This document shows, in pieces, positions 46,736 to 56,660 of a stretch of DNA of 64,000 nucleotides (positions are counted from its first letter, which is position 1; each line of letters starts with the position of its first letter). A program made the position numbers and the translations under genes. The notes below the pieces were generated by a model, which saw only the letters and a list, made by a program, of their open reading frames with translations, was not told the origin of the DNA and made no database searches. Origin of the DNA: Reyranella sp. (GTDB lineage Bacteria > Pseudomonadota > Alphaproteobacteria > Reyranellales > Reyranellaceae); assembly GCF_004297405.1 (NCBI RefSeq), contig NZ_SCVC01000042.1, forward strand, positions 124,001 through 188,000. The letters run 5' to 3'.

Positions 46736-48307
46736 TCAGGCATTTGCAAGGCGCGGTGAGGAATAGCCTCTCGTGCCGCTGGGATCGATGCTGAAGATCG
46801 CCACAGGTTCGCTGCGACCGCGAACGACCACACTGCCCAAGGGGCTGAAAGAAAATTCCCCGTTGCAGTTCGAGCGGGTGCTTTCGGAAACCAGGATCCG
46901 CGTGCCGTGTTGCTTGTTCAGTTCCTCGAGCCGTGCGGCAAGGTTCACCGTATCGCCCAGCAAAGTGAAGCTCATACGCTGGCCGGCGCCGACCGAACCG
47001 CCGATCACGCCGCCGGTGCTGATGCCGATGCGCGTTGCGAACGACATGCCGACGTCGCCGAAGGTGCGGCTGCCGACCGCGCGCTGGATATCGAGGGCAG
47101 CCCGCACGGCCGCCGAGGCGTGGCCATCGCAGGCCAACGGCATGTTGAAGGACGCGAACAAGCCGTCACCAATGAAGGTATTGACCACGCCGCCGTGAGC
47201 GCGGATGGGCGCCAGTACCGTCTGGAGATATTCGTTCAGGGCGATCACGAGCTGGTCTGGCGGCAGGTGCTCAGCAATCGTCGTGAAGCCTTCGATGTCG
47301 CTGAACAGGATCGTCGCATCGCGCGTCTCGCCAGCCAGGACACCAGCGCCTTCGCGCCGCAGGATGGTGGCGGCGACACTTTCATCAACGTAGCGGCCGA
47401 AGGTCTCGCGAATGCGCTCCCGCTCCCGCAAGCCTTCGATCATGTTGTTGAATTGACCGGTGAGCTCGCCCACCTCGTCGTTCGAGGTGACAGGGATGCG
47501 CTGGCTGAGGTCGCCCTTGCTTACCTTGGTCATGGCTTGAGAGAGGGTGCGCAGCGGCCGTAGCAGCGAGCGGCTGATGTAGAAGGCTGATATCGAGACA
47601 CCGACGACGGCCGAAGCGACGTCGACAAGGATCTCCATTTGCTGGCGATCGCCCTGGTAGGAAAAGAGATCGACCAGAATAGCCGCCAAGGGGCCGATCG
47701 AGATGACGACCAGCGCGACTACCAACTTGTTCCTGTAGCGGCCAAAGAACAGGCCGAGATTGCGGCCCTGATGCCGGAAGATGAAGGTGCAGAGCTGCGA
47801 GAGATAATCGCTGACGACGAAGTAGGTGAAGGTGAAGTAGAGCACCATCAGCACGGCACAGGTCGCGATGAAGTCGGCAATCGCCGGCACCGGAATGTTC
47901 GAGGCCGTGGGGCCGGCCCACAACGGCGAGGAGAGGCGGACGGCCCAGGTGATGAAGGTGAGTGCGAACACCCGCTGCGCCGTCAGCAGAGGGAGCTGCG
48001 TCAGCCGTCGCTGCACTTCGTCGAAGGGAATCTCGCCGTTGAGATAACGCCGAACCGGCTGAAAGAGCCGGGAGATGGCGAGGAAGTTGATGCCGACCAG
48101 CATGAGGGCGCCGAATCCCACGACGATCGGATAGTTGCGCCAGGTGTTGGCGATGACGGCGTAGATCGTGACGATTGACAGGTCGAGGAAGAACACCGAC
48201 GTCGCCATCCAGAAATAGCGGCGGCTGATCGCGGCTACCTGTGCAGGCGTGGCCGGAATGATGCCGGAAGAAGACGCCGAAGAAGATGCGGTCGAGGTGT
48301 CGCTCAT
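46736..48307 (-). CDS. Membrane class III nucleotide cyclase, noncanonical purine residues (copy 1)
   Basis: 523 aa. About six membrane helices (~35-248), HAMP (~245-300), cyclase domain (~330-515). Metal ligands Asp337 (FSDIEGFT) and Asp381 (GDG), Asn455 and Arg459 are intact, so catalysis is plausible. The two base-specifying residues are changed: Thr377 at the Lys position (VNTFIGDG) and Ser446 at the Asp position (MSFTLLG). Substrate preference is thus unclear. Overlaps the upstream paralogue by 4 bases; both derive from a tandem duplication. Confidence 0.85.
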   Translation of the reverse strand: MSDTSTASSSASSSGIIPATPAQVAAISRRYFWMATSVFFLDLSIVTIYAVIANTWRNYPIVVGFGALMLVGINFLAISRLFQPVRRYLNGEIPFDEVQRRLTQLPLLTAQRVFALTFITWAVRLSSPLWAGPTASNIPVPAIADFIATCAVLMVLYFTFTYFVVSDYLSQLCTFIFRHQGRNLGLFFGRYRNKLVVALVVISIGPLAAILVDLFSYQGDRQQMEILVDVASAVVGVSISAFYISRSLLRPLRTLSQAMTKVSKGDLSQRIPVTSNDEVGELTGQFNNMIEGLRERERIRETFGRYVDESVAATILRREGAGVLAGETRDATILFSDIEGFTTIAEHLPPDQLVIALNEYLQTVLAPIRAHGGVVNTFIGDGLFASFNMPLACDGHASAAVRAALDIQRAVGSRTFGDVGMSFATRIGISTGGVIGGSVGAGQRMSFTLLGDTVNLAARLEELNKQHGTRILVSESTRSNCNGEFSFSPLGSVVVRGRSEPVAIFSIDPSGTRGYSSPRLANA

Positions 48308-49806
48308 GCCGGAGGCCCCACACGATAGACAACGACGTCGCCACGATGGCCGCGCACGTCCGTGACACCCAGCCGCTCGCAGCCTTCGACGGCGCCGGCC
48401 GCGAGCACCGTACTCTCGGCCGCCAGGATCGTCGTGCCGAACTTCTTGTTGAGCTGTTCGATGCGTGAGGCGACGTTCACCGCATCGCCCAGCAACGTGT
48501 AATTCAGTCGGTTTTCAGTGCCGATCGTGACGCCGATCACCGGTCCAGTATTGATGCCGATGCGGGTCCGCAGTCCGGCCTTGCCGGCGAAGGGGGCGGC
48601 CGCAAGGGCTTGCTGGATCTCGATAGCCGCGTTCACGGCGGCAGCGGCATGATTGGCGATCGGCAGGGGCAAGTTGAAGCTCGCGAACAACCCGTCGCCG
48701 ATGAAATTGTTCACAACGCCGCCATGACGCTGGATCACCGGTACGACGGTGCCGAGATAGGTGTTGAGCAGCGCCGCGATCTCTGTCGGCGTGGCCCCCT
48801 CCGAGAGACCGGTAAAGCCTTCGATGTCGGTGAACATCAGCGTGGCTTCGGCGGTCGTATCCACGGTGCGGCCGCTGCGTCCGCTGTTGCCGAGGATCGC
48901 GGTCGCCACGCTCTCACTCACGTATTTGCCAAAGGTATCGCGCAGATACTCCCGCTCGGCGAGGCCTTCGACCATCTGATTGAAGCGGCTGGCGGCATGG
49001 CCGAGCTCGTCATTGGTCGTGACGGGCAGGCGCACGGTGTAGTCGTCCTCGGCGACCCGCCGCAGGCCGCCATCGAGGCGATCGATCGGCCGGGTCAGCG
49101 CCTGGGAAATCCAATAATAGACGAAGGCGGCACCGGTCAGGGTGAGGGCGATGTCGGACGTGGCCTCGCGTATCAACCGCGCGCCCGAATAGCTGGCAAT
49201 GTCGGCGGCCAGCAGGATCAGGCCGGAAAACGACAAGAACACCATGGCCAGCGCGACCTTGTTGCGAAACCGGCCGTGAAATGTCGCCATGTTGACGCCG
49301 TGTATCCGAAACAGGTGTTCGCACAAACGGTCGAAGTAGGCACTGACGACGAAATAGGTCAGCACGACATTGAATAGGGCACCGACCACGATTGTGGCGA
49401 TGGCGTCTGTCAGCTGTGCCGGCTCCAACGTGGCGCCGAAGGAGATGCCGAGCTGATGAGAGAGCACGCGCATTGCCAGCATGGGAGTGTAGAGCACCCC
49501 CACGACGATGGCTGAATTGTAGGGCAAGCGGGCGAGTTGCGATTCGATCTGTCCGAACCTGGTCTCGCCCGAGACGAACCGCATGACCGGACGGATCAGC
49601 CACCAGGCACCCAAGCCGACGCCCACCAGCAAAAAGCAGGAGGCGATCACCAGAGTCGGGAACAGGATTTCAGGAGCCTGGTGAATCAGCGCGTAGATCG
49701 CGTCTGAAATCACATCGACCGCAAACGGCACCGCCATCGCCGCATAGTATCGGCGCTCGATGCTGGCCGACGCCGCAAGCGGCGCCGCATCGGTCGTGGC
49801 GGTCAT
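48304..49806 (-). CDS. Membrane class III nucleotide cyclase, noncanonical purine residues (copy 2)
   Basis: 500 aa with the same architecture as its downstream neighbour: membrane region (~25-235), HAMP (~232-290), cyclase domain (~320-495). Metal Asp327 (FTDIEGFT) and Asp371, Asn444 and Arg448 are present. Asn367 replaces the canonical Lys (VNNFIGDG) and Asn435 replaces the Asp (LNYTLLG). The matching changes at identical positions in both copies argue against random decay. Confidence 0.85.
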   Translation of the reverse strand: MTATTDAAPLAASASIERRYYAAMAVPFAVDVISDAIYALIHQAPEILFPTLVIASCFLLVGVGLGAWWLIRPVMRFVSGETRFGQIESQLARLPYNSAIVVGVLYTPMLAMRVLSHQLGISFGATLEPAQLTDAIATIVVGALFNVVLTYFVVSAYFDRLCEHLFRIHGVNMATFHGRFRNKVALAMVFLSFSGLILLAADIASYSGARLIREATSDIALTLTGAAFVYYWISQALTRPIDRLDGGLRRVAEDDYTVRLPVTTNDELGHAASRFNQMVEGLAEREYLRDTFGKYVSESVATAILGNSGRSGRTVDTTAEATLMFTDIEGFTGLSEGATPTEIAALLNTYLGTVVPVIQRHGGVVNNFIGDGLFASFNLPLPIANHAAAAVNAAIEIQQALAAAPFAGKAGLRTRIGINTGPVIGVTIGTENRLNYTLLGDAVNVASRIEQLNKKFGTTILAAESTVLAAGAVEGCERLGVTDVRGHRGDVVVYRVGPPA

Positions 49807-49882: not shown

Positions 49883-50974
49883 TTACGCTGTCAGTTCGCG
49901 TGCAGTGATGCGGTAGCGGAACTTGTCGGGATCGAGCGAATCGAGGAATCCCGACCGGTTCTCGGCCTGCGGGTACATCAGGAAGGCGATGGGTGGCTCC
50001 TTGGAGCCCGGCAGCTTCAGATCGTGCGCGACATTGTAGGCAAGCCAGTTGCCTTCCCAGGAACCGAACAGGGCACGACGGGCAGCAACGACCTTCGGAT
50101 CGGTCATGGCGAGGTTGGCCGGTGGTTCCTCGAGGACCACCTTGCGCACGTCGGCCGGATCGACAGGGGTCCAGCCGGAGCCTGCGAGCCAGACCTCGGC
50201 GCGGCAATGCTGGGCCTTGGAAACGACCTCGGAGCCGGCGCCCAGCGCCTTGAAGCCGAACTCCGACGGCATCACGCGGATGCCATAGACATCGCGCGCC
50301 GGCAGACCGGCTGACCGGGCGAGACCGACATAGAGCGCATTCAGGTCTGCACACTTGCCGTTCAGGTTGCCGGTCTTGATCATGGTCGTAATGTCGCCGA
50401 CGCCGCAGCCCAAGGTCTTGGCATTGCGGAAGGTATTTTCGACCACCCAGTCGTAGATCGCGCGTGCCTTGGCGACGTCGCCCTGCTTGCCACGCACGAT
50501 CTCGTCGGCCGTCTCCTTCACGATGCCATCGGTTGGCAGGAAGGTGGTCGGCATCAGGTTCAGCTTGCGCTCGGCATCGCTCAGCGCAGGCGCGTTGCCC
50601 TTGCCCGGCACGACCGAGCGATTCTGGGCCTGGACCTGTGCGGTAACTTCGATCACGGGCGACGACTGATCGGCGGCCCATTCGACCCGCAGCATCTCGG
50701 TGCCATACTTGGGATCGCGCACGCGTTCGGCAACGCGCGCATTGCCTGTCCAGGTGACATTGCCCGGCCGCTGCCAGTCGGAGGCTTCAAAGGTCGGCAG
50801 CGGTATCCATGCCTTGGTGGCGCCTGCCGTCGGCTCGACCTTGGTGGTGAGCACGTAGCTGCGCCAGCCTTTGGGAACAGGGGCATAGGTGACGGCCTGC
50901 GCCGAGGCCAGGCGTGGTGCCAAGCCCAGCGCGCCGGCGGCAACGCCAGCCTTCAAAAGGTCGCGACGATTCAT
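49883..50974 (-). CDS. Tat-exported transglutaminase-like cysteine protease-fold protein
   Basis: 363 aa. Tat signal MNRRDLLKAGVAAGALGLAPRLASA at the N-terminus. The catalytic triad of a transglutaminase fold is visible: Cys in LNGKCADLNALYVGLARSAGLPAR, His in AQHCRAEVWL and Asp in WTPVDPADVR. An N-terminal beta-domain (~30-135) precedes it. Periplasmic peptidase, amidase or crosslinking roles are all possible. Its Shine-Dalgarno GGGGAGGA (50982-50989) is fully complementary to TCCTCCCC further upstream. Confidence 0.85.
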   Translation of the reverse strand: MNRRDLLKAGVAAGALGLAPRLASAQAVTYAPVPKGWRSYVLTTKVEPTAGATKAWIPLPTFEASDWQRPGNVTWTGNARVAERVRDPKYGTEMLRVEWAADQSSPVIEVTAQVQAQNRSVVPGKGNAPALSDAERKLNLMPTTFLPTDGIVKETADEIVRGKQGDVAKARAIYDWVVENTFRNAKTLGCGVGDITTMIKTGNLNGKCADLNALYVGLARSAGLPARDVYGIRVMPSEFGFKALGAGSEVVSKAQHCRAEVWLAGSGWTPVDPADVRKVVLEEPPANLAMTDPKVVAARRALFGSWEGNWLAYNVAHDLKLPGSKEPPIAFLMYPQAENRSGFLDSLDPDKFRYRITARELTA

Positions 50975-50981
50975 CTTTCAA

Positions 50982-51013
50982 TCCTCCCCAATGGCGATCA
51001 TTGCCGGGGAGGA
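50982..51013 (-). promoter_or_regulatory. Hairpin sequestering the Shine-Dalgarno of the transglutaminase gene
   Basis: On the mRNA strand, TCCTCCCC (51006-51013) pairs perfectly over 8 bases with GGGGAGGA (50982-50989), the ribosome-binding site 7 bases before the ATG. An inner AATG/CATT stem and a 5-base loop (ATCGC) extend it, with a 3-base GGC bulge. This would hide the site from ribosomes unless melted or bound. Confidence 0.7.
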
Positions 51014-51134
51014 TGGTCTTTCCCGTCGTCAGGAAGGATCAGGGCCGTCCCGGATCAAGCCCGCGTCGCACGCGACAGCGGCAAGTACCGGAAGGGCGAG
51101 GATTGCAGCGCCGCGGCGGCGCCGTCAATGTTTC

Positions 51135-51851
51135 CTAGAGGCCGAGATAGGCTTGGCGCACGCGATCGTTGGTCAACAGCTCGGCGCCCGGCCCGTCGAG
51201 CTCGATGCGGCCGTTCTCCAGCACATAGCCACGATGGGCGATCTTGAGCGACGCCATGACATTCTGCTCGACCAGCAGAATGGTGAGACCTTCCTCGTTG
51301 AGACGACGGACGATGCGGAACACTTCCTGCACGATCGTGGGGGCGAGGCCGAGCGAGGGTTCGTCGAACATGATGAGCCGTGGTTGACCCATCAGGCAGC
51401 GCCCGATCGCCAGCATCTGCTGCTCGCCGCCAGAGAGCGTGCCGGCGGCCTGCTTGCGTCGCTCGGCAAGCCGCGGGAACAGGGTGAACACCCGTTCCAG
51501 TGTCTGTTTCTCGGCGGCGCGCGCATGCCGGGGCGTCGCGCCCATCTCGAGATTTTCTAGTACCGAAAGATTGGGGAAGACCTGCCGCCCTTCGGCGACA
51601 TGACCGATGCCGACTTCGCAGACACGATAGGAAGGCCAGCCGGTGATGTCCTGACCATCGAAACGGATCTTGCCCTGCGCCGGCTTTTCGATGCCGTGGA
51701 TCGCGCGAATGAGGGAACTCTTGCCCGCACCGTTGGCGCCGACGATCGCCACGATCTCGCCGGTCGCGATGGTGAGCGAGACGCCGGCCAAAGCCTGGGC
51801 GTCACCATAGTAGAGGTCGATACCATCGACCTGCAGGAGGGGGCCGCTCAC
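51135..51851 (-). CDS. livF: Branched-chain amino acid-type ABC ATPase LivF (cluster 2)
   Basis: 238-aa ATPase: Walker A GANGAGKSS, signature LSGGEQQMLAIGRCL, Walker B LIMFDEPSLGLAP. Last gene of a complete five-gene HAAT cluster on the minus strand; overlaps livG by 4 bases. The 160-base region downstream contains the leader of the transglutaminase gene. Confidence 0.9.
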   Translation of the reverse strand: MSGPLLQVDGIDLYYGDAQALAGVSLTIATGEIVAIVGANGAGKSSLIRAIHGIEKPAQGKIRFDGQDITGWPSYRVCEVGIGHVAEGRQVFPNLSVLENLEMGATPRHARAAEKQTLERVFTLFPRLAERRKQAAGTLSGGEQQMLAIGRCLMGQPRLIMFDEPSLGLAPTIVQEVFRIVRRLNEEGLTILLVEQNVMASLKIAHRGYVLENGRIELDGPGAELLTNDRVRQAYLGL

Positions 51852-52576
51852 GCTTCTTCCTCGCCGAGATAGACGTCGAGGACGGCCTGATGGCGCGCGA
51901 TCTCCGCCGGCGTGCCTTGCGCGATCTTCTCGCCGTAGCTCACGACAACGACTTCTGCCGCCAATGCCATCACGGCGCGCATCACATGCTCGATCAGCAG
52001 GACGGTGAGACCGGTGCGTGCGTTGAGGTCGCGCAGAAAGGCGACCATCACATCGACCTCGGTCGGGCGCAGGCCCGCCATGACCTCGTCGAGCAGCAGC
52101 AACTTGGGCTCGGTCGCCAGAGCCCGCGCCACTTCGAGGCGCTTGCGATCGGGCAGGGTGAGGCTTTCCGCGGCCTGGTTGCGCCGGTCATGGAGGCCAA
52201 GCCCCTGCAGAATATCGGCGGCGGCAGCACGGGCGTCGGTAAGGTTCGGCCGCCGATGCAGGGCGCCAACCGTCACGTTCTCCAGCACGCTCAGCCCCTT
52301 GAAGGGCTTCACGATCTGGAAGGTGCGGCCCACGCCGGCATCGCACACGAGGTCGGGGCGCAGGCCGGAGATCTTCTTGCCGTCAAGGTTCACCTGGCCG
52401 GCATCCGGCCGGTAAACCCCGGCAATCATGTTGAAGATCGTGGTCTTGCCTGCACCGTTCGGACCGATCAGCGCGTGGATCGCTCCGGCCGGCACGGCGA
52501 AGGAGACATCGTGCACCGCACGCAATCCACGGAAGTTCTTGCCGACGCCGGCAAGTTCGAGGTGCGCGCCGCTCAC
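51848..52576 (-). CDS. livG: Branched-chain amino acid-type ABC ATPase LivG (cluster 2)
   Basis: 242-aa ATPase, start at a GTG at 52576 inside the livM stop (GTGA overlap). Walker A GPNGAGKTTIFN, signature region LTLPDRKRLEVARAL, Walker B LLLLDEVMAGL. An upstream extension to 52615 is out of place because it overlaps livM and is Arg-rich. Confidence 0.88.
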   Translation of the reverse strand: MSGAHLELAGVGKNFRGLRAVHDVSFAVPAGAIHALIGPNGAGKTTIFNMIAGVYRPDAGQVNLDGKKISGLRPDLVCDAGVGRTFQIVKPFKGLSVLENVTVGALHRRPNLTDARAAAADILQGLGLHDRRNQAAESLTLPDRKRLEVARALATEPKLLLLDEVMAGLRPTEVDVMVAFLRDLNARTGLTVLLIEHVMRAVMALAAEVVVVSYGEKIAQGTPAEIARHQAVLDVYLGEEEA

Positions 52577-53571
52577 CGCCGCTTCTCCCCGAAGCCGAAA
52601 CGGTCGGCGAGCCATGGCCAGACACCAGCGGGGCGGTACATGACGATGATCAGCAGGGCGAGGCCGTAAAAGATCTGCTTGATGCCCGAGATATGGAAGA
52701 CTTCGCTGAGGTCGGTGAAGATCTCACCGAGGCCGGTCAGCACGACGGCGCCGACGATCGGGCCGAACAGCGTACCGAGTCCGCCGATGATGGGCGCCAG
52801 GGTGAATTCGATGGATCGGCCCATGGCGAAGGCCGTCTCGGGGAAGAGGTTGTTGTAGTAGAAGGCGTTCCAGACACCGGCCAGCGCCGTCATCGCGGCC
52901 GAGATCACCACGGCGATCATCTTGCAGCGAAGCACCGGCACGCCGACAGCCTGGGCCGCCTCCGCATCCTCGCGAATCGCGAGCCAGTAGCGGCCGAGCC
53001 GGCTTTCCAACAGGAGACGGCACAGGATGAATGCGCCGACCGCGAGCGCCAGGATCACGTAGTAGAAAAGGATCGGCCCGCCACGCAGGTTCAGCAGGTT
53101 GACGGTGGCGTCGACCTTGAGGAACAAGCCGCCCGAACCACCGACCCAGCCCCAGTGATCGAAGGCGATACGGGTGAATTCACTGAAGGCGATGGTGAGC
53201 AGCGCGAAGTAGACGCCGGCCAGGGAGAAACGGAAGCCGAGATAGCCGACAACTGCACCGGCTGCGGACGCCGCCGCAACGGCGACGAACAGCCCAGCCC
53301 ACGGGCCGATGCCATAGTGGAAGAAGAGGCCGGCCGCGATATAGCCACCGAGCCCGGCATAGAGAGCATGGCCCAGCGAAAGCTGGCCGGCGAAGCCCAT
53401 CATGATGTTCCAGGCCTGACCGACATAGGCGAAGTAGAGGATCAGGATCAGGACGGAGAGGCCGTATTTGCCGAGAACGGCCGGCGCGACCAGCAAGCCC
53501 ACGAGCAGCAGGCCAAGACACCAGAGCGCACGCGAGGGCACGCCATCGGTCAGGCGGCGTAGCAGGTTCAT
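52573..53571 (-). CDS. livM: Branched-chain amino acid-type ABC permease LivM (cluster 2)
   Basis: 332-aa permease with GFAGQLSLGHALYAGLGGYIAA, the LivM signature, and GLGTLFGPIVGAVVLTGLGE near the end. Overlaps livH by 4 bases and livG by 4 bases. Confidence 0.9.
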   Translation of the reverse strand: MNLLRRLTDGVPSRALWCLGLLLVGLLVAPAVLGKYGLSVLILILYFAYVGQAWNIMMGFAGQLSLGHALYAGLGGYIAAGLFFHYGIGPWAGLFVAVAAASAAGAVVGYLGFRFSLAGVYFALLTIAFSEFTRIAFDHWGWVGGSGGLFLKVDATVNLLNLRGGPILFYYVILALAVGAFILCRLLLESRLGRYWLAIREDAEAAQAVGVPVLRCKMIAVVISAAMTALAGVWNAFYYNNLFPETAFAMGRSIEFTLAPIIGGLGTLFGPIVGAVVLTGLGEIFTDLSEVFHISGIKQIFYGLALLIIVMYRPAGVWPWLADRFGFGEKRR

Positions 53572-54449
53572 TGGCTGTTCTTGCCGAGCAGGCCCTGCGG
53601 CCGGAGCAGCAGCACCAGGATCAGGATGCCGAAGCTCACCATGCTCTTGAGGGAGGGCTGCAGCAGGAGGCCGGCCACGGCCTCGCTGACGCCGATCAGC
53701 AGGCCGCCCAGCAGCGCGCCGGTCATGCTGCCGAGTCCGCCCACGATCACGATCACGAAGGCGAGCAACGTGTACTCAGCGGCGAGGAAGGGCGTCACCG
53801 GGATGATGGTGATCATCAGTGCGCCGGCGGCACCCACGCAGGCGGCGCCGACACCGAACGTGAAGGCGTAGAGACGCTTCACGTCCAGGCCGACGACGAG
53901 GGCGCCCATGTGATTGTCAGCGGCGGCGCGGATCGATTTACCGATGCGCGTGCGGGTGAAGAAGAGCCAGAGAAGGCCAGCAATCGCGACCGCAACCAGC
54001 GCCGCATGCAGGCGCACGGCGTCGAACACCAGGGGGCCGAGTTCGTAAGAATCGAACTGCGACTCCATCTGCACGCCCCGCGAATCGGGGCCAGCGATGG
54101 CAAGGCAGGCGTTGACCAGAAGGATGGCGATCGCCAGCAGCAGCAGGAACTGCTGATGCTCGGGCCGGCCGATGAAGGGCGAGATGACGCCGCGCTGCAG
54201 GGCATACCCTGCAACGAAGAAGACGGCGGCGATCAGCGGCAGGCTCAGCATCGGCGAGACCTGCAGATATTCGAAGCCCATCCAGGCGAGGTACATGCCG
54301 ACGACCATCAGCTCGCCATGCGCGAAGTTGACCACGCGCATGACGCCGAAGATCACCGACAGGCCAAGCGCCATCAGCCCGTAGACCATACCGGTCAACA
54401 GGCCCTTGGTGATCGCCTGGGCGAGCGAGAGAAGAAAGTCGGACGTCAA
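53568..54449 (-). CDS. livH: Branched-chain amino acid-type ABC permease LivH (cluster 2)
   Basis: 293-aa permease with GMVYGLMALGLSVIFGVMRVVNFAHG, the LivH signature. The start appears to be a TTG at 54449, 4 bases after the binding-protein stop, so translation probably depends on coupling to that gene. No ATG is available before the first helix. Confidence 0.88.
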   Translation of the reverse strand: MTSDFLLSLAQAITKGLLTGMVYGLMALGLSVIFGVMRVVNFAHGELMVVGMYLAWMGFEYLQVSPMLSLPLIAAVFFVAGYALQRGVISPFIGRPEHQQFLLLLAIAILLVNACLAIAGPDSRGVQMESQFDSYELGPLVFDAVRLHAALVAVAIAGLLWLFFTRTRIGKSIRAAADNHMGALVVGLDVKRLYAFTFGVGAACVGAAGALMITIIPVTPFLAAEYTLLAFVIVIVGGLGSMTGALLGGLLIGVSEAVAGLLLQPSLKSMVSFGILILVLLLRPQGLLGKNSQ

Positions 54450-54453
54450 AGTG

Positions 54454-55707
54454 CTAGGTGCGCCGCTTGTCGTTCCAGCTGGGCATCGGGAAGACCAGCG
54501 GGGCAGCCGCGGACTCGAGCGGCAGGACGACGGTGGGCTTGCGCTTCAGGTTCTCGACCGCCGAGGCCTTGATGTTGACGTTCTGGCCCTTGGCGTCGAA
54601 CTGGATCGGCCCTCCGATCATGACGTGCTGGTCGATCTTGCTCTTGCGCAGGGCTTCCATCAGGTCACCCGGCTTGGTCGACTTGGCGGTGAGCCAGGCG
54701 TGGGCGGCGATCAGGATGCCTTCGAAGGTGAAGCCGCCGTTCAGGTCGAGCTGGTCGTTGGGATATTTGGCGGCGTGGCGCTTCTCCAGCGACTGGGTCA
54801 TGGCCGACTTCGGGTCAAGCCACGGCACGTTCGAGATCATGAACTCGCCGTACTTGCCCATCGTCTTCAGGAAGTCCTGCTCGTAGAGGCCAGGCGCGCC
54901 CGGGTTCAGGACACCCATCGGCTCCCAGCGCTGCTTCACCATCTCCTGCACGAGGAGCTTGGCGTCGTTGAGGCGGCTCACCGGCAGCAGCAGCTCGGCC
55001 TTGGTCGCCTTGGCCTTGCCGACTTCGACGGCGAGGTCCTTGGCCGCTGGATCGTAGCTGATCGTGTCGACCAGCTCGTAGGGCATGTCGAGCTTGGGGA
55101 AGAGCGCCTTGATGCCGTTGATCATCGACGTGCCGAACGTGTCGTTCACGCTCATCAGCACCGCCGTCTTCGGCGTCTTGCCCGAGACCTTGAAGATCTC
55201 CTTGTGCAGCGCCAGCGCGCCGGTGATCAGCATCGGCGCCGTCGGGAAGTTACGCACAACGAACTTGTAGCCCTGCTCCGTGATCTGCGGCGCTGCCGCG
55301 ATGTTCACGATCAGCGGCACGCCGCGCTGTTCGCAGACCTGGGCGATGGCGATGGTCTGGCCGGAGTCGAAGGCACCGACCAGCATGTGGCAGCCGGCAT
55401 CGATCGCCTTCTCGGCCTGCGTGCGCGCCACGTCGGGCTTGGTCTCGGTGTCGTAATTCACGATGTCGATCTTCACCGGCATCTTCATGTCGGCGAACAC
55501 CTCGTTGGCGACGTCGGCGCCACGGCGGCAAGCCTGGCCGATCTGCGCCTGAAGGCCCGACGTCGGCAGCAGCAATCCAACCTTGAGGTTGGCCGGTCCG
55601 CCCTGTGCCAACGCCTGACGGATCGGCAGCGGCGCCCCAAGGAGCGCGGTACCGGCCAAGGTCGCCTGTCCGAAGCGACGGCGGGTGAATGTGTTGCGGC
55701 CGGTCAT
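54454..55707 (-). CDS. Periplasmic binding protein of Liv/HAAT ABC transporter (cluster 2), Tat-type
   Basis: 417-aa type I periplasmic binding protein. The N-terminus FTRRRFGQATLAGTALLGAP with three Arg is Tat-like, then NLKVGLLLPTSGLQAQIGQACRRG opens the mature fold. First gene of the cluster with livH, livM, livG, livF. The ligand is unknown. Divergent from the uraD-uraH fusion across 71 bases. Confidence 0.88.
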   Translation of the reverse strand: MTGRNTFTRRRFGQATLAGTALLGAPLPIRQALAQGGPANLKVGLLLPTSGLQAQIGQACRRGADVANEVFADMKMPVKIDIVNYDTETKPDVARTQAEKAIDAGCHMLVGAFDSGQTIAIAQVCEQRGVPLIVNIAAAPQITEQGYKFVVRNFPTAPMLITGALALHKEIFKVSGKTPKTAVLMSVNDTFGTSMINGIKALFPKLDMPYELVDTISYDPAAKDLAVEVGKAKATKAELLLPVSRLNDAKLLVQEMVKQRWEPMGVLNPGAPGLYEQDFLKTMGKYGEFMISNVPWLDPKSAMTQSLEKRHAAKYPNDQLDLNGGFTFEGILIAAHAWLTAKSTKPGDLMEALRKSKIDQHVMIGGPIQFDAKGQNVNIKASAVENLKRKPTVVLPLESAAAPLVFPMPSWNDKRRT

Positions 55708-55778: not shown

Positions 55779-56660
55779 ATGATGCATACGCTCGCCGACC
55801 TCAACCATGCGGCTTCCGCAGATTTTTGCGCGGCCGTTGGCGAGACGTTCGAGTTGGCACCCTGGGTGGCGGAGACGGTGGCCTCGAAGCGACCCTTCGC
55901 CAGCGTGACGGCCTTGCATGAAGCCATGATGGGCGTCGTGCGTGCCGCGCCGCGTGAGCGTCAGCTCAAGTTCCTGCGCGGACATCCCGATCTGGCCGGC
56001 AAGGCGGCCCGCGCCGGTACGCTCACAGATGATTCGCGGCGCGAGCAGGCAAGCGTTGGCCTCGATTCCTTGTCGGAGATGGATTTTCAGCGGTTCCATC
56101 GCCTGAATGATGCCTATAAGGCGAAGTTCGGCTTTCCCTTCATCGTCTGCGTGCGTCGACACACACGCGATTCGACCCTCGACCAGTTCGAGCGCCGGCT
56201 GCGCCACGACGCAGCCGGCGAATTCGCCACGGCCCTGCAGGAGATCTTCTTCATCACGCGGTTGCGTATGGCGGCCAAGGTGACGGGCGAGGGTATGCCC
56301 AGGGTCAATGGACGCCTCAGCACGCATGTTCTCGACACACATGCAGGTCGGCCAGCGGTCGGCATCGCCGTCGAGCTCTACGAATTTGCCGGCAAGCAGG
56401 CACATCTGATCGCGACCGCAGTGACCAACGCGGATGGCCGCACCGATGCGCCGCTGATCGGCAATCGGCCGCTGCCGATCGGCCGATATGAACTGCAGTT
56501 TGCGGTTGGTGACCACTTCCGCAGCAGGGGCATTGAGCAAAGCGACCCGCCGTTTCTCGATATCGTGCCTTTGCGCTTTTCCATTGCCGAGCCGGAGGGG
56601 CATTATCACGTGCCGCTGCTCTGCACGCCCTGGAGCTATTCGACCTATCGCGGAAGTTAG
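55779..56660 (+). CDS. uraDH: Bifunctional OHCU decarboxylase / 5-hydroxyisourate hydrolase (UraD-UraH fusion)
   Basis: 293 aa with two domains that are normally separate. Residues 1-165: OHCU decarboxylase (UraD), with the catalytic His69 in RGHPDL, and SLSEMDFQRFHRLNDAYKAKFGFPFIV. Residues 175-293: 5-hydroxyisourate hydrolase (transthyretin-like), with STHVLDTHAGRPA (His183), DGRTDAP (Arg221), HVPLLCTPWSYSTYRGS (His277 and the YRGS C-terminal tetrapeptide). UraH acts first, then UraD, giving S-allantoin. Fusing both would hand on the unstable OHCU. A uricase gene is not in the window. The aldehyde dehydrogenase gene follows by 18 bases. Confidence 0.93.
   Translation: MMHTLADLNHAASADFCAAVGETFELAPWVAETVASKRPFASVTALHEAMMGVVRAAPRERQLKFLRGHPDLAGKAARAGTLTDDSRREQASVGLDSLSEMDFQRFHRLNDAYKAKFGFPFIVCVRRHTRDSTLDQFERRLRHDAAGEFATALQEIFFITRLRMAAKVTGEGMPRVNGRLSTHVLDTHAGRPAVGIAVELYEFAGKQAHLIATAVTNADGRTDAPLIGNRPLPIGRYELQFAVGDHFRSRGIEQSDPPFLDIVPLRFSIAEPEGHYHVPLLCTPWSYSTYRGS

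Follow-up and report, generated by a model that had tools for sequence, protein, structure and literature searches.

A genus-restricted structured leader that very likely controls translation of a transglutaminase-fold gene in Reyranella

Genomic context and leader anatomy

The window analysed here is a stretch of 64,000 nucleotides from a Reyranella genome. It contains a minus-strand gene whose product has a transglutaminase core domain, in agreement with the original prediction, which had placed a transglutaminase gene downstream of a hairpin. The start codon is found at 50974–50972 (minus strand). The Tat signal is only probable, as the score for PF10518 (21.6 bits) lies just under the cut-off of 22.7. 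The closest protein homologues come from Reyranella (R. massiliensis 521, 96% identity) and from MAGs of Rhodospirillales/Alphaproteobacteria. More distant homologues of the same group are titled Enhydrobacter. For the coordinates of all features see Table 1.

Table 1. Features of the transglutaminase-fold gene and its leader (window coordinates)
Feature	Position	Strand	Evidence
Controlled gene, 363 aa, Transglut_core with probable Tat signal	49883..50974	-	PF01841, E 1.5e-21
P4 3' arm GGGGAGGAU, contains the Shine-Dalgarno sequence (SD)	50981..50989	-	sequence read, fold, pair counts
P4 5' arm, anti-Shine-Dalgarno AUCCUCCCC	51006..51014	-	sequence read, fold, pair counts
P3 hairpin, inner stem with NCGA-type loop, variable outer stem	51015..51041	-	pair counts
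P1 3' strand CCGGG	51049..51053	-	last four bases CGGG invariant, 52/52 leaders
P2 hairpin CCGC-U-GUCG(CGUG)CGAC-GCGG, conserved bulged U and loop	51061..51081	-	98.5% of cells paired
P1 5' strand UCCGG	51088..51092	-	consensus fold, pair counts; not in the window's minimum-energy fold at 37 °C
-10-like CAATCC within conserved GCAATNCT, 17 nt after -35	51100..51105	-	alignment, spacing
-35-like TTGACG, conserved promoter-like block	51123..51128	-	regular expression, 43/49 loci
livF, upstream neighbour, last gene of a branched-chain amino acid-type ABC transporter operon	51135..51851	-	domain annotation

The liv-type ABC transporter operon upstream extends from 51135 to 55707. Divergent from it lies a fused OHCU decarboxylase-HIUase gene (55779–56660), a gene of uric acid breakdown; in 10 relatives without liv genes upstream, this fused gene is directly divergent from the leader and the transglutaminase gene. 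Downstream of the transglutaminase gene, the window has a tandem pair of HAMP-adenylate/guanylate cyclase genes (46736–49806). At 46 of 49 loci one or more HAMP-cyclase genes come next, and the sequence of the remaining three loci stops about 200 nt or less beyond the gene. The gene order suggests that the transglutaminase and HAMP-cyclase genes may form a functional unit.

The hairpin over the ribosome binding site, P4, is the 3' end of a leader of about 110 nt. Its elements are, in order, a promoter-like block, P1 enclosing P2, P3 and P4. An alignment of the window with 47 orthologue upstream regions (L053–L100 and L111, minus L088 and L090) showed one conserved block that spans from the TTGACG/GCAATNCT pair to the start codon. 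A regular expression found TTGACG/A at a near-fixed distance from the leader at 43 of 49 loci. Among the six loci missed by the expression, TTGACG is visible in L082, L098 and L088, and none is seen in L087, L090 and L093. Since only five bases separate the -10-like element from the first leader base, the transcript probably begins at or beside UUCCGG, near position 51093. A transcription start inside the hairpin, which the original prediction had named as a refutation because it would remove the anti-SD arm, was not seen. With the conserved promoter-like block some 100 nt upstream of P4, the anti-SD arm is expected to be part of the transcript.

Several unpaired bases of the leader are near-invariant (columns of alignment A4, see below): the bulged U27 in 51 of 52 leaders, and C32 and G38 of the P2 loop and C81 of the P3 loop in all 52. 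The P3 loop reads ACGA in the window and UCGA, CCGA, ACGG or otherwise in relatives.

The P4 hairpin and the Shine-Dalgarno sequence

Before the ATG, the minus strand reads 5'-ATCCTCCCC GGCAATGATCGCCATT GGGGAGGAT-3'. The perfect 8-base stem described earlier, with the complement 16 bases upstream of the ribosome site, was confirmed; the exact arms (51014–51006 with 50989–50981, spacing 16 nt) even form 9 bp. The proposed inner AATG/CATT stem did not hold up. In the minimum-energy fold the inner part of P4 pairs as GGC/GCC with AUU (ATT in the DNA) bulged, and the pairing mostly kept in relatives is GGCA/UGCC.

The window has 66 exact inverted repeats with 8-base arms and short loops (43.0 ± 6.9 in Markov shuffles) and 23 with 9-base arms (10.2 ± 5.5). 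On both strands together there are 573 8-mers with GGAGG or GGGAG, four of which have an exact complement just upstream. Folding of the 195-nt region gave z = -1.90. Taken alone, the P4 stem is ordinary by chance in 64 kb; it is notable through its conservation.

In the fold model the window's P4 has a stability of -19.8 kcal/mol at 37 °C and -18.1 kcal/mol at 42 °C. The mean unpaired probability of the SD (GGGGAGGA) is 0.0047 at 37 °C and 0.0063 at 42 °C, and with 0.0155 the SD is still closed at 60 °C. The SD is thus predicted to be closed by default, and the claim that it is locked when the hairpin is folded was borne out as a prediction. Over the 52 leaders described below the stability of P4 at 37 °C averages -14.6 kcal/mol (range -22.0 to -3.1 kcal/mol), and opening of the SD costs between 1.8 and 16.2 kcal/mol. 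As expected for a cis-regulatory leader with the SD inside a helix, the pairing probability of the SD reaches at least 0.8 in 37 of 52 leaders, compared with 31 of 118 control gene starts from the same loci; strongly paired SDs also occur among these controls, namely for livH (13 of 30) and livG (5 of 8). A function of P4 as an intrinsic terminator was rejected, as its 3' arm is followed by UGAAAGAUG, without a U run.

Consensus structure and covariation

RNAalifold predicted for 48 leaders a consensus structure with P1 (UCCGG/CCGGG) enclosing P2 (CCGC-U-GUCG/CGAC-GCGG), a P3 core and P4. From ten well-aligned leaders and this structure, with the P3 and P4 stems lengthened by hand, the covariance model R1 was built. 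Applied to 54 sources, R1 retrieved 52 distinct leaders, among them the ten seeds, which match by construction; L172 and L173 gave no match. L088 and L090 are not among the 54 sources, and L073 was omitted because its leader is that of L072. Of 56 earlier model matches, 47 were leaders, and nine weak matches, which lay elsewhere or on the opposite strand, were removed by the E-value threshold of 0.005.

In the alignment A4 of the 52 leaders, 86.4% of the cells are standard pairs; the fit of A4 to the structure works in favour of the pair counts and may depress the identity of P4. Pairing-keeping changes on both sides were observed at 21 of 36 pairs. Such two-sided cells number 100, compared with 43.1 in shuffles, and none of 500 shuffles matched any of five measures. 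When the partner columns were slid by 1–3 positions, pairing fell to 33–50%. A tree-aware null gave 48.0 ± 10.9 two-sided cells and reached the observed 100 in none of 500 runs. The tree-aware nulls and the single-pair test below were custom scripts modelled on R-scape, not R-scape itself.

Resolved by helix, the percentage of paired cells was matched by the tree-aware null in 0 of 500 runs for P1, P2 and the inner stem of P3, in 27 for the outer stem of P3, in 2 for the outer stem of P4 (76.7% paired against 59.7 ± 7.7) and in 19 for the inner stem of P4. For two-sided cells the corresponding numbers were 28 (P1), 1 (P2), 34 (P3 outer), 37 (P3 inner), 51 (P4 outer) and 328 (P4 inner). The two-sided signal of P4 is weak at the level of single helices, with 24 cells against 15.1 for the outer and 3 against 4.4 for the inner stem. 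At least one two-sided change was found in relatives at eight of the nine outer P4 pairs. P3 is paired in 96.1% of the cells of its inner stem and 62.0% of those of its outer stem, with two-sided changes in both. P2 shows exchanges between C-G and U-A in both directions, and the P1 pair of A4 columns 7 and 55 also occurs as A-U, G-U and U-G. The R-scape-like test of single pairs was significant for one of 36 pairs (A4 columns 29–41, in P2); against all column pairs, none was significant.

Arms were also swapped between leaders, with the borders of the A4 columns. The native combinations of P1, P2 and P3 beat all 5000 permutations, and the native P4 was better than all but 11 of 5000 (77 for the outer arm alone). 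The SD itself changes together with its partner: CCCUUCCC/GGGAAGGG in L072, UCCUCCCGA/UCGGGAGGA in L087 and CUUCCC/GGGAAG in L083. By pair counts, arm swaps and the tree-aware null, both arms co-vary in relatives, which is the check that had been proposed together with the hairpin; a lack of covariation, named there as the other refutation, was thus not seen either.

At least half of the pairs of a helix were present in the single-sequence minimum-energy folds of 44 (P2), 41 (P3 inner), 36 (P4 outer) and 26 (P1) of the 52 leaders. The window's own minimum-energy fold contains P2, the inner stem of P3 and P4, and P1 is absent from it. At 68–76% protein identity, the sequence identity was 0.75 for the P1/P2 region, 0.61 for fourfold sites, 0.56 for P3 and 0.49 for P4. 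At 88–94% protein identity, it was 0.90, 0.69, 0.76 and 0.75, respectively. The 5' domain was above fourfold sites in every identity class. A conserved 5' domain together with a fast-changing, still paired SD helix is a riboswitch-type layout. Conserved nucleotides, covarying structure and a platform at the ribosome binding site, the features of riboswitches given in PMC7266159, are all found in the leader, with weak single-pair significance and with P1 often missing from single folds.

Distribution, linkage and loss

In its own genome the leader has one convincing copy; the runner-up of the covariance search scored 19.2 bits (E 1.05). In 48 of 61 sampled genomes of the genus, the leader lies directly upstream of and in line with the transglutaminase gene, as judged by comparing coordinates by eye, and the 52 distinct leaders precede this same gene. 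None of the nine genomes without the gene, several of which are incomplete drafts, carries the leader. Of the 52 genomes with the gene, four lack the leader: G005 and G024 (read directly), G070, and G010 (gene cut by the contig end). Four weak hits that lie apart from the gene (G004:C61, G011:C13, G076:C68 and G005:C23) are left out of the leader count. A tblastn search of 41 fetched loci detected the gene in 35; the six without it are the weak hits L134–L136 and L169–L171. The leader stays beside the gene where another gene replaces livF upstream, and at 10 loci the gene in livF's place is that of the OHCU decarboxylase-HIUase.

The leader is dispensable: L084 has lost P4, L088 has lost the leader, and L090, L172 and L173 have neither leader nor promoter block. 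L088 represents a natural deletion: it retains the promoter block, and in place of the leader it has a short segment carrying an ordinary SD. On the gene tree the losses of the leader appear nested among lineages that carry it. At L148 (1617–2284) the transglutaminase gene was matched in two pieces in different frames, so the gene is broken or mis-assembled; the leader at this locus is intact.

Outside the genus, a search of 11 other genomes of the order with R1 yielded two weak hits (30.0 and 24.7 bits), both in one sister genus and not before the gene. R2, run on 289 genomes of the class, produced two hits beyond the genus, both weak (about 27 bits) and within what chance would give at E 0.01 per genome. 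Homologues of the gene from other genera (L101–L110, L112–L132) showed no leader match below E 0.77. The sister-genus hits (L169:1915–2043 and L171:1637–1764) fall in a shared intergenic stretch starting with CACCCGGUAC or CAUCCGGUAC, with no such gene downstream and no Rfam match. This stretch is possibly a distant relative of the leader or a chance match.

Proposed mechanism and alternative explanations

Sequence comparison establishes the parts of the leader, their conservation, the retained pairing and the linkage to one gene. It is very likely that this genus-restricted leader controls the translation of that gene. The explanation that we favour, and consider somewhat more likely than not, goes further: P4 would act as the expression platform of a genus-specific structured leader that is driven by a signal. 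Of the original interpretation, the predicted locking of the SD and the lack of a matching RNA family stood, the thermometer option did not, and the conserved multi-helix leader that ends in the hairpin had been overlooked.

Based on these results we propose the following mechanism. Transcription would begin at the conserved promoter near 51093. The 5' domain, consisting of P1 enclosing P2 with its conserved unpaired bases, and P3 would precede P4, whose 5' arm would pair with the SD and keep ribosomes off. Closing of P4 would presumably stop translation, and a signal presumably exists. This signal would be sensed by the 5' domain, most likely as a small molecule and otherwise through an RNA-binding protein. 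By favouring either the closed or the open form of P4, it would set the level of translation.

A more specific version is possible, though we advance it tentatively: the leader may represent a new riboswitch class of Reyranella and its immediate relatives, in which P1/P2 (together with P3) would bind, as an aptamer, a metabolite connected with the transglutaminase-fold protein or with the neighbouring Liv-type transporter, and P4 would be the translational platform. With a single target gene in a single genus, the occurrence of the leader does not point to any ligand.

For the open state, a switch through an anti-anti-SD helix of the P1 3' strand and the anti-SD arm was considered; it is energetically possible but not supported, as 679 of 2000 column shuffles were as good. 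This combination was weakly favoured in the arm swaps (233 of 5000). Among the stretches tried, the P1 3' strand is the strongest competitor of the SD arm for the anti-SD arm (-11.0 against -12.8 kcal/mol). When the SD was kept open in the model, four or more bases of the P4 5' arm found partners in the P1-3' region; this holds for 28 of 52 leaders but not for the window. The P3 strands were discarded as alternative partners because swapped arms outdid the native ones: 4927 of 5000 for P3-3' with the P4 arm, and 5000 of 5000 for P1-3' with P3-5'.

The same lack of a supported alternative fold would suit a constitutive device, in which the leader only protects the mRNA or fixes a low translation rate and does not switch. 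Such a device would also be in line with the energy needed to open the SD in every one of the 52 leaders and with the losses of the leader without loss of the gene. However, more than 110 nt with a 5' domain above fourfold-site conservation exceed the needs of a fixed weak ribosome site, and we regard this explanation as rather unlikely.

We also judge it unlikely that a protein regulator binds P1/P2 and the loop bases and stabilises or opens P4. The conserved unpaired bases would be as suitable for a protein as for a ligand, and a single target gene fits a dedicated regulator. On the other hand, no candidate binding protein emerged, and the product of the gene, being probably exported, is unlikely to bind its own mRNA.

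An RNA thermometer, one of the options of the original prediction, seems very improbable. Here heat would melt P4 and free the SD, and P1–P3 would be spacer hairpins as in ROSE-type leaders. The general layout is shared: in ROSE elements, too, the SD lies in the final one of several leader hairpins. The wide range of P4 stabilities would also allow a few weak hairpins to melt. The window's stem, however, is perfect and too stable, with a fold-model SD that remains nearly fully paired at 60 °C. The SD is perfectly paired with UCCUCCCC, not with U(U/C)GCU, CUGCU or four U as in the definitions given in PMC12857270. Furthermore, a thermometer would leave the conserved 5' domain unexplained, and Rfam gave no match.

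We give very little credence to an upstream reading frame, in which a conserved AUGG after P1 would begin a small upstream peptide, and its translation would either open P4 or be coupled to the gene. A start codon is found at A4 columns 60–62 in 36 of 52 leaders, and 14 of these 36 frames stop at the start codon of the gene, but frames in that phase stop there at the latest because the gene begins with ATGA. In the remaining 16 leaders, the window included (51046–51048 reads ACG), there is no start codon at this position, and with the gene in phase 0, 1 and 2 in 9, 12 and 15 leaders no frame is conserved. Inside P4, the window's only leader AUG opens a 7-codon frame that L053 and L111, its nearest relatives, do not have.

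Equally hard to credit is a dispersed palindromic repeat or a DNA operator that overlaps the SD by chance: TCCTCCCC(N)GGGGAGGA occurs 7 times in the genome (reversed control 0) and CCTCCCC(N)GGGGAGG 63 times (control 17), but palindromes of 22–24 nt on contig C42 make up most copies among the matches listed, the full leader is one convincing copy with conserved position, flanks and pairing in relatives, and an operator is at odds with the varying loop length, unlike fixed half-site spacing, and with the frequent G-U pairs on the mRNA strand. The single convincing genomic copy, the linkage within the genus and the pair counts largely refute the repeat.

Contig C42 (367 kb; L004, L005, L019–L022) contains REP-like palindromes such as CCTCCCCATTCAAATGGGGAGG and CCTCCCCCGTCATCGGGGGAGG, often paired about 80–100 nt apart. 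Because the palindromes are concentrated there, with most copies among the matches listed, this contig is suggested to be foreign or wrongly binned.

Comparison with known systems

As stated in the original prediction, no known RNA family was recognised. Rfam 15 gave no match for the window at the gathering cut-off; a search of 20 loci with E up to 1 gave four matches, none of them inside the leader. In the parts of the literature covered by our search, nothing joined Reyranella with a riboswitch, and nothing on this leader came up. Absent from both Rfam 15 and the literature searched, the leader looks undescribed. The analysis extends a single hairpin to a defined RNA family that comparison supports, that has a promoter-like block and one target gene, and of which natural deletion variants exist. 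It is also an example of a single-genus, single-gene leader outside Rfam 15. If a ligand is sensed, it would hint at the role of the transglutaminase-fold protein and at the cargo of the adjacent transporter.

The best sub-threshold Rfam hit was the Guanidine-II riboswitch (mini-ykkC, RF01068), with which the window shares a P3 loop ACGA. The score of 14.7 bits (E 0.62) is far from the cut-off of 32, however, the model aligns across different segments, and the P3 loop varies in relatives. The leader is thus not assigned to this family.

Thermometers are similar in having a 3'-terminal hairpin on the SD after upstream hairpins. According to PMC12857270, ROSE and ROSE-G elements contain U(U/C)GCU or CUGCU imperfectly paired to the SD, and fourU elements at least four consecutive U paired to it. 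The leader differs from both by its perfect, G-C-rich stem; opposite the SD the window shows neither U(U/C)GCU or CUGCU nor UUUU, and its stem is far too stable.

The leader differs from riboswitches in having no Rfam match, no ligand and no supported anti-anti-SD helix, and in its restriction to one genus and one gene. It resembles the translational OFF riboswitches and orphan candidates, exemplified by the xanthine-sensing NMT1 motif (PMC7373994) and judged by the features given in PMC7266159, in its conserved 5' domain, its covarying helices and its SD-sequestering platform. As with orphan riboswitch candidates, in the genomes searched it always precedes one and the same gene, in line with it. 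Its anatomy is like that of a translational riboswitch or a protein-controlled leader.
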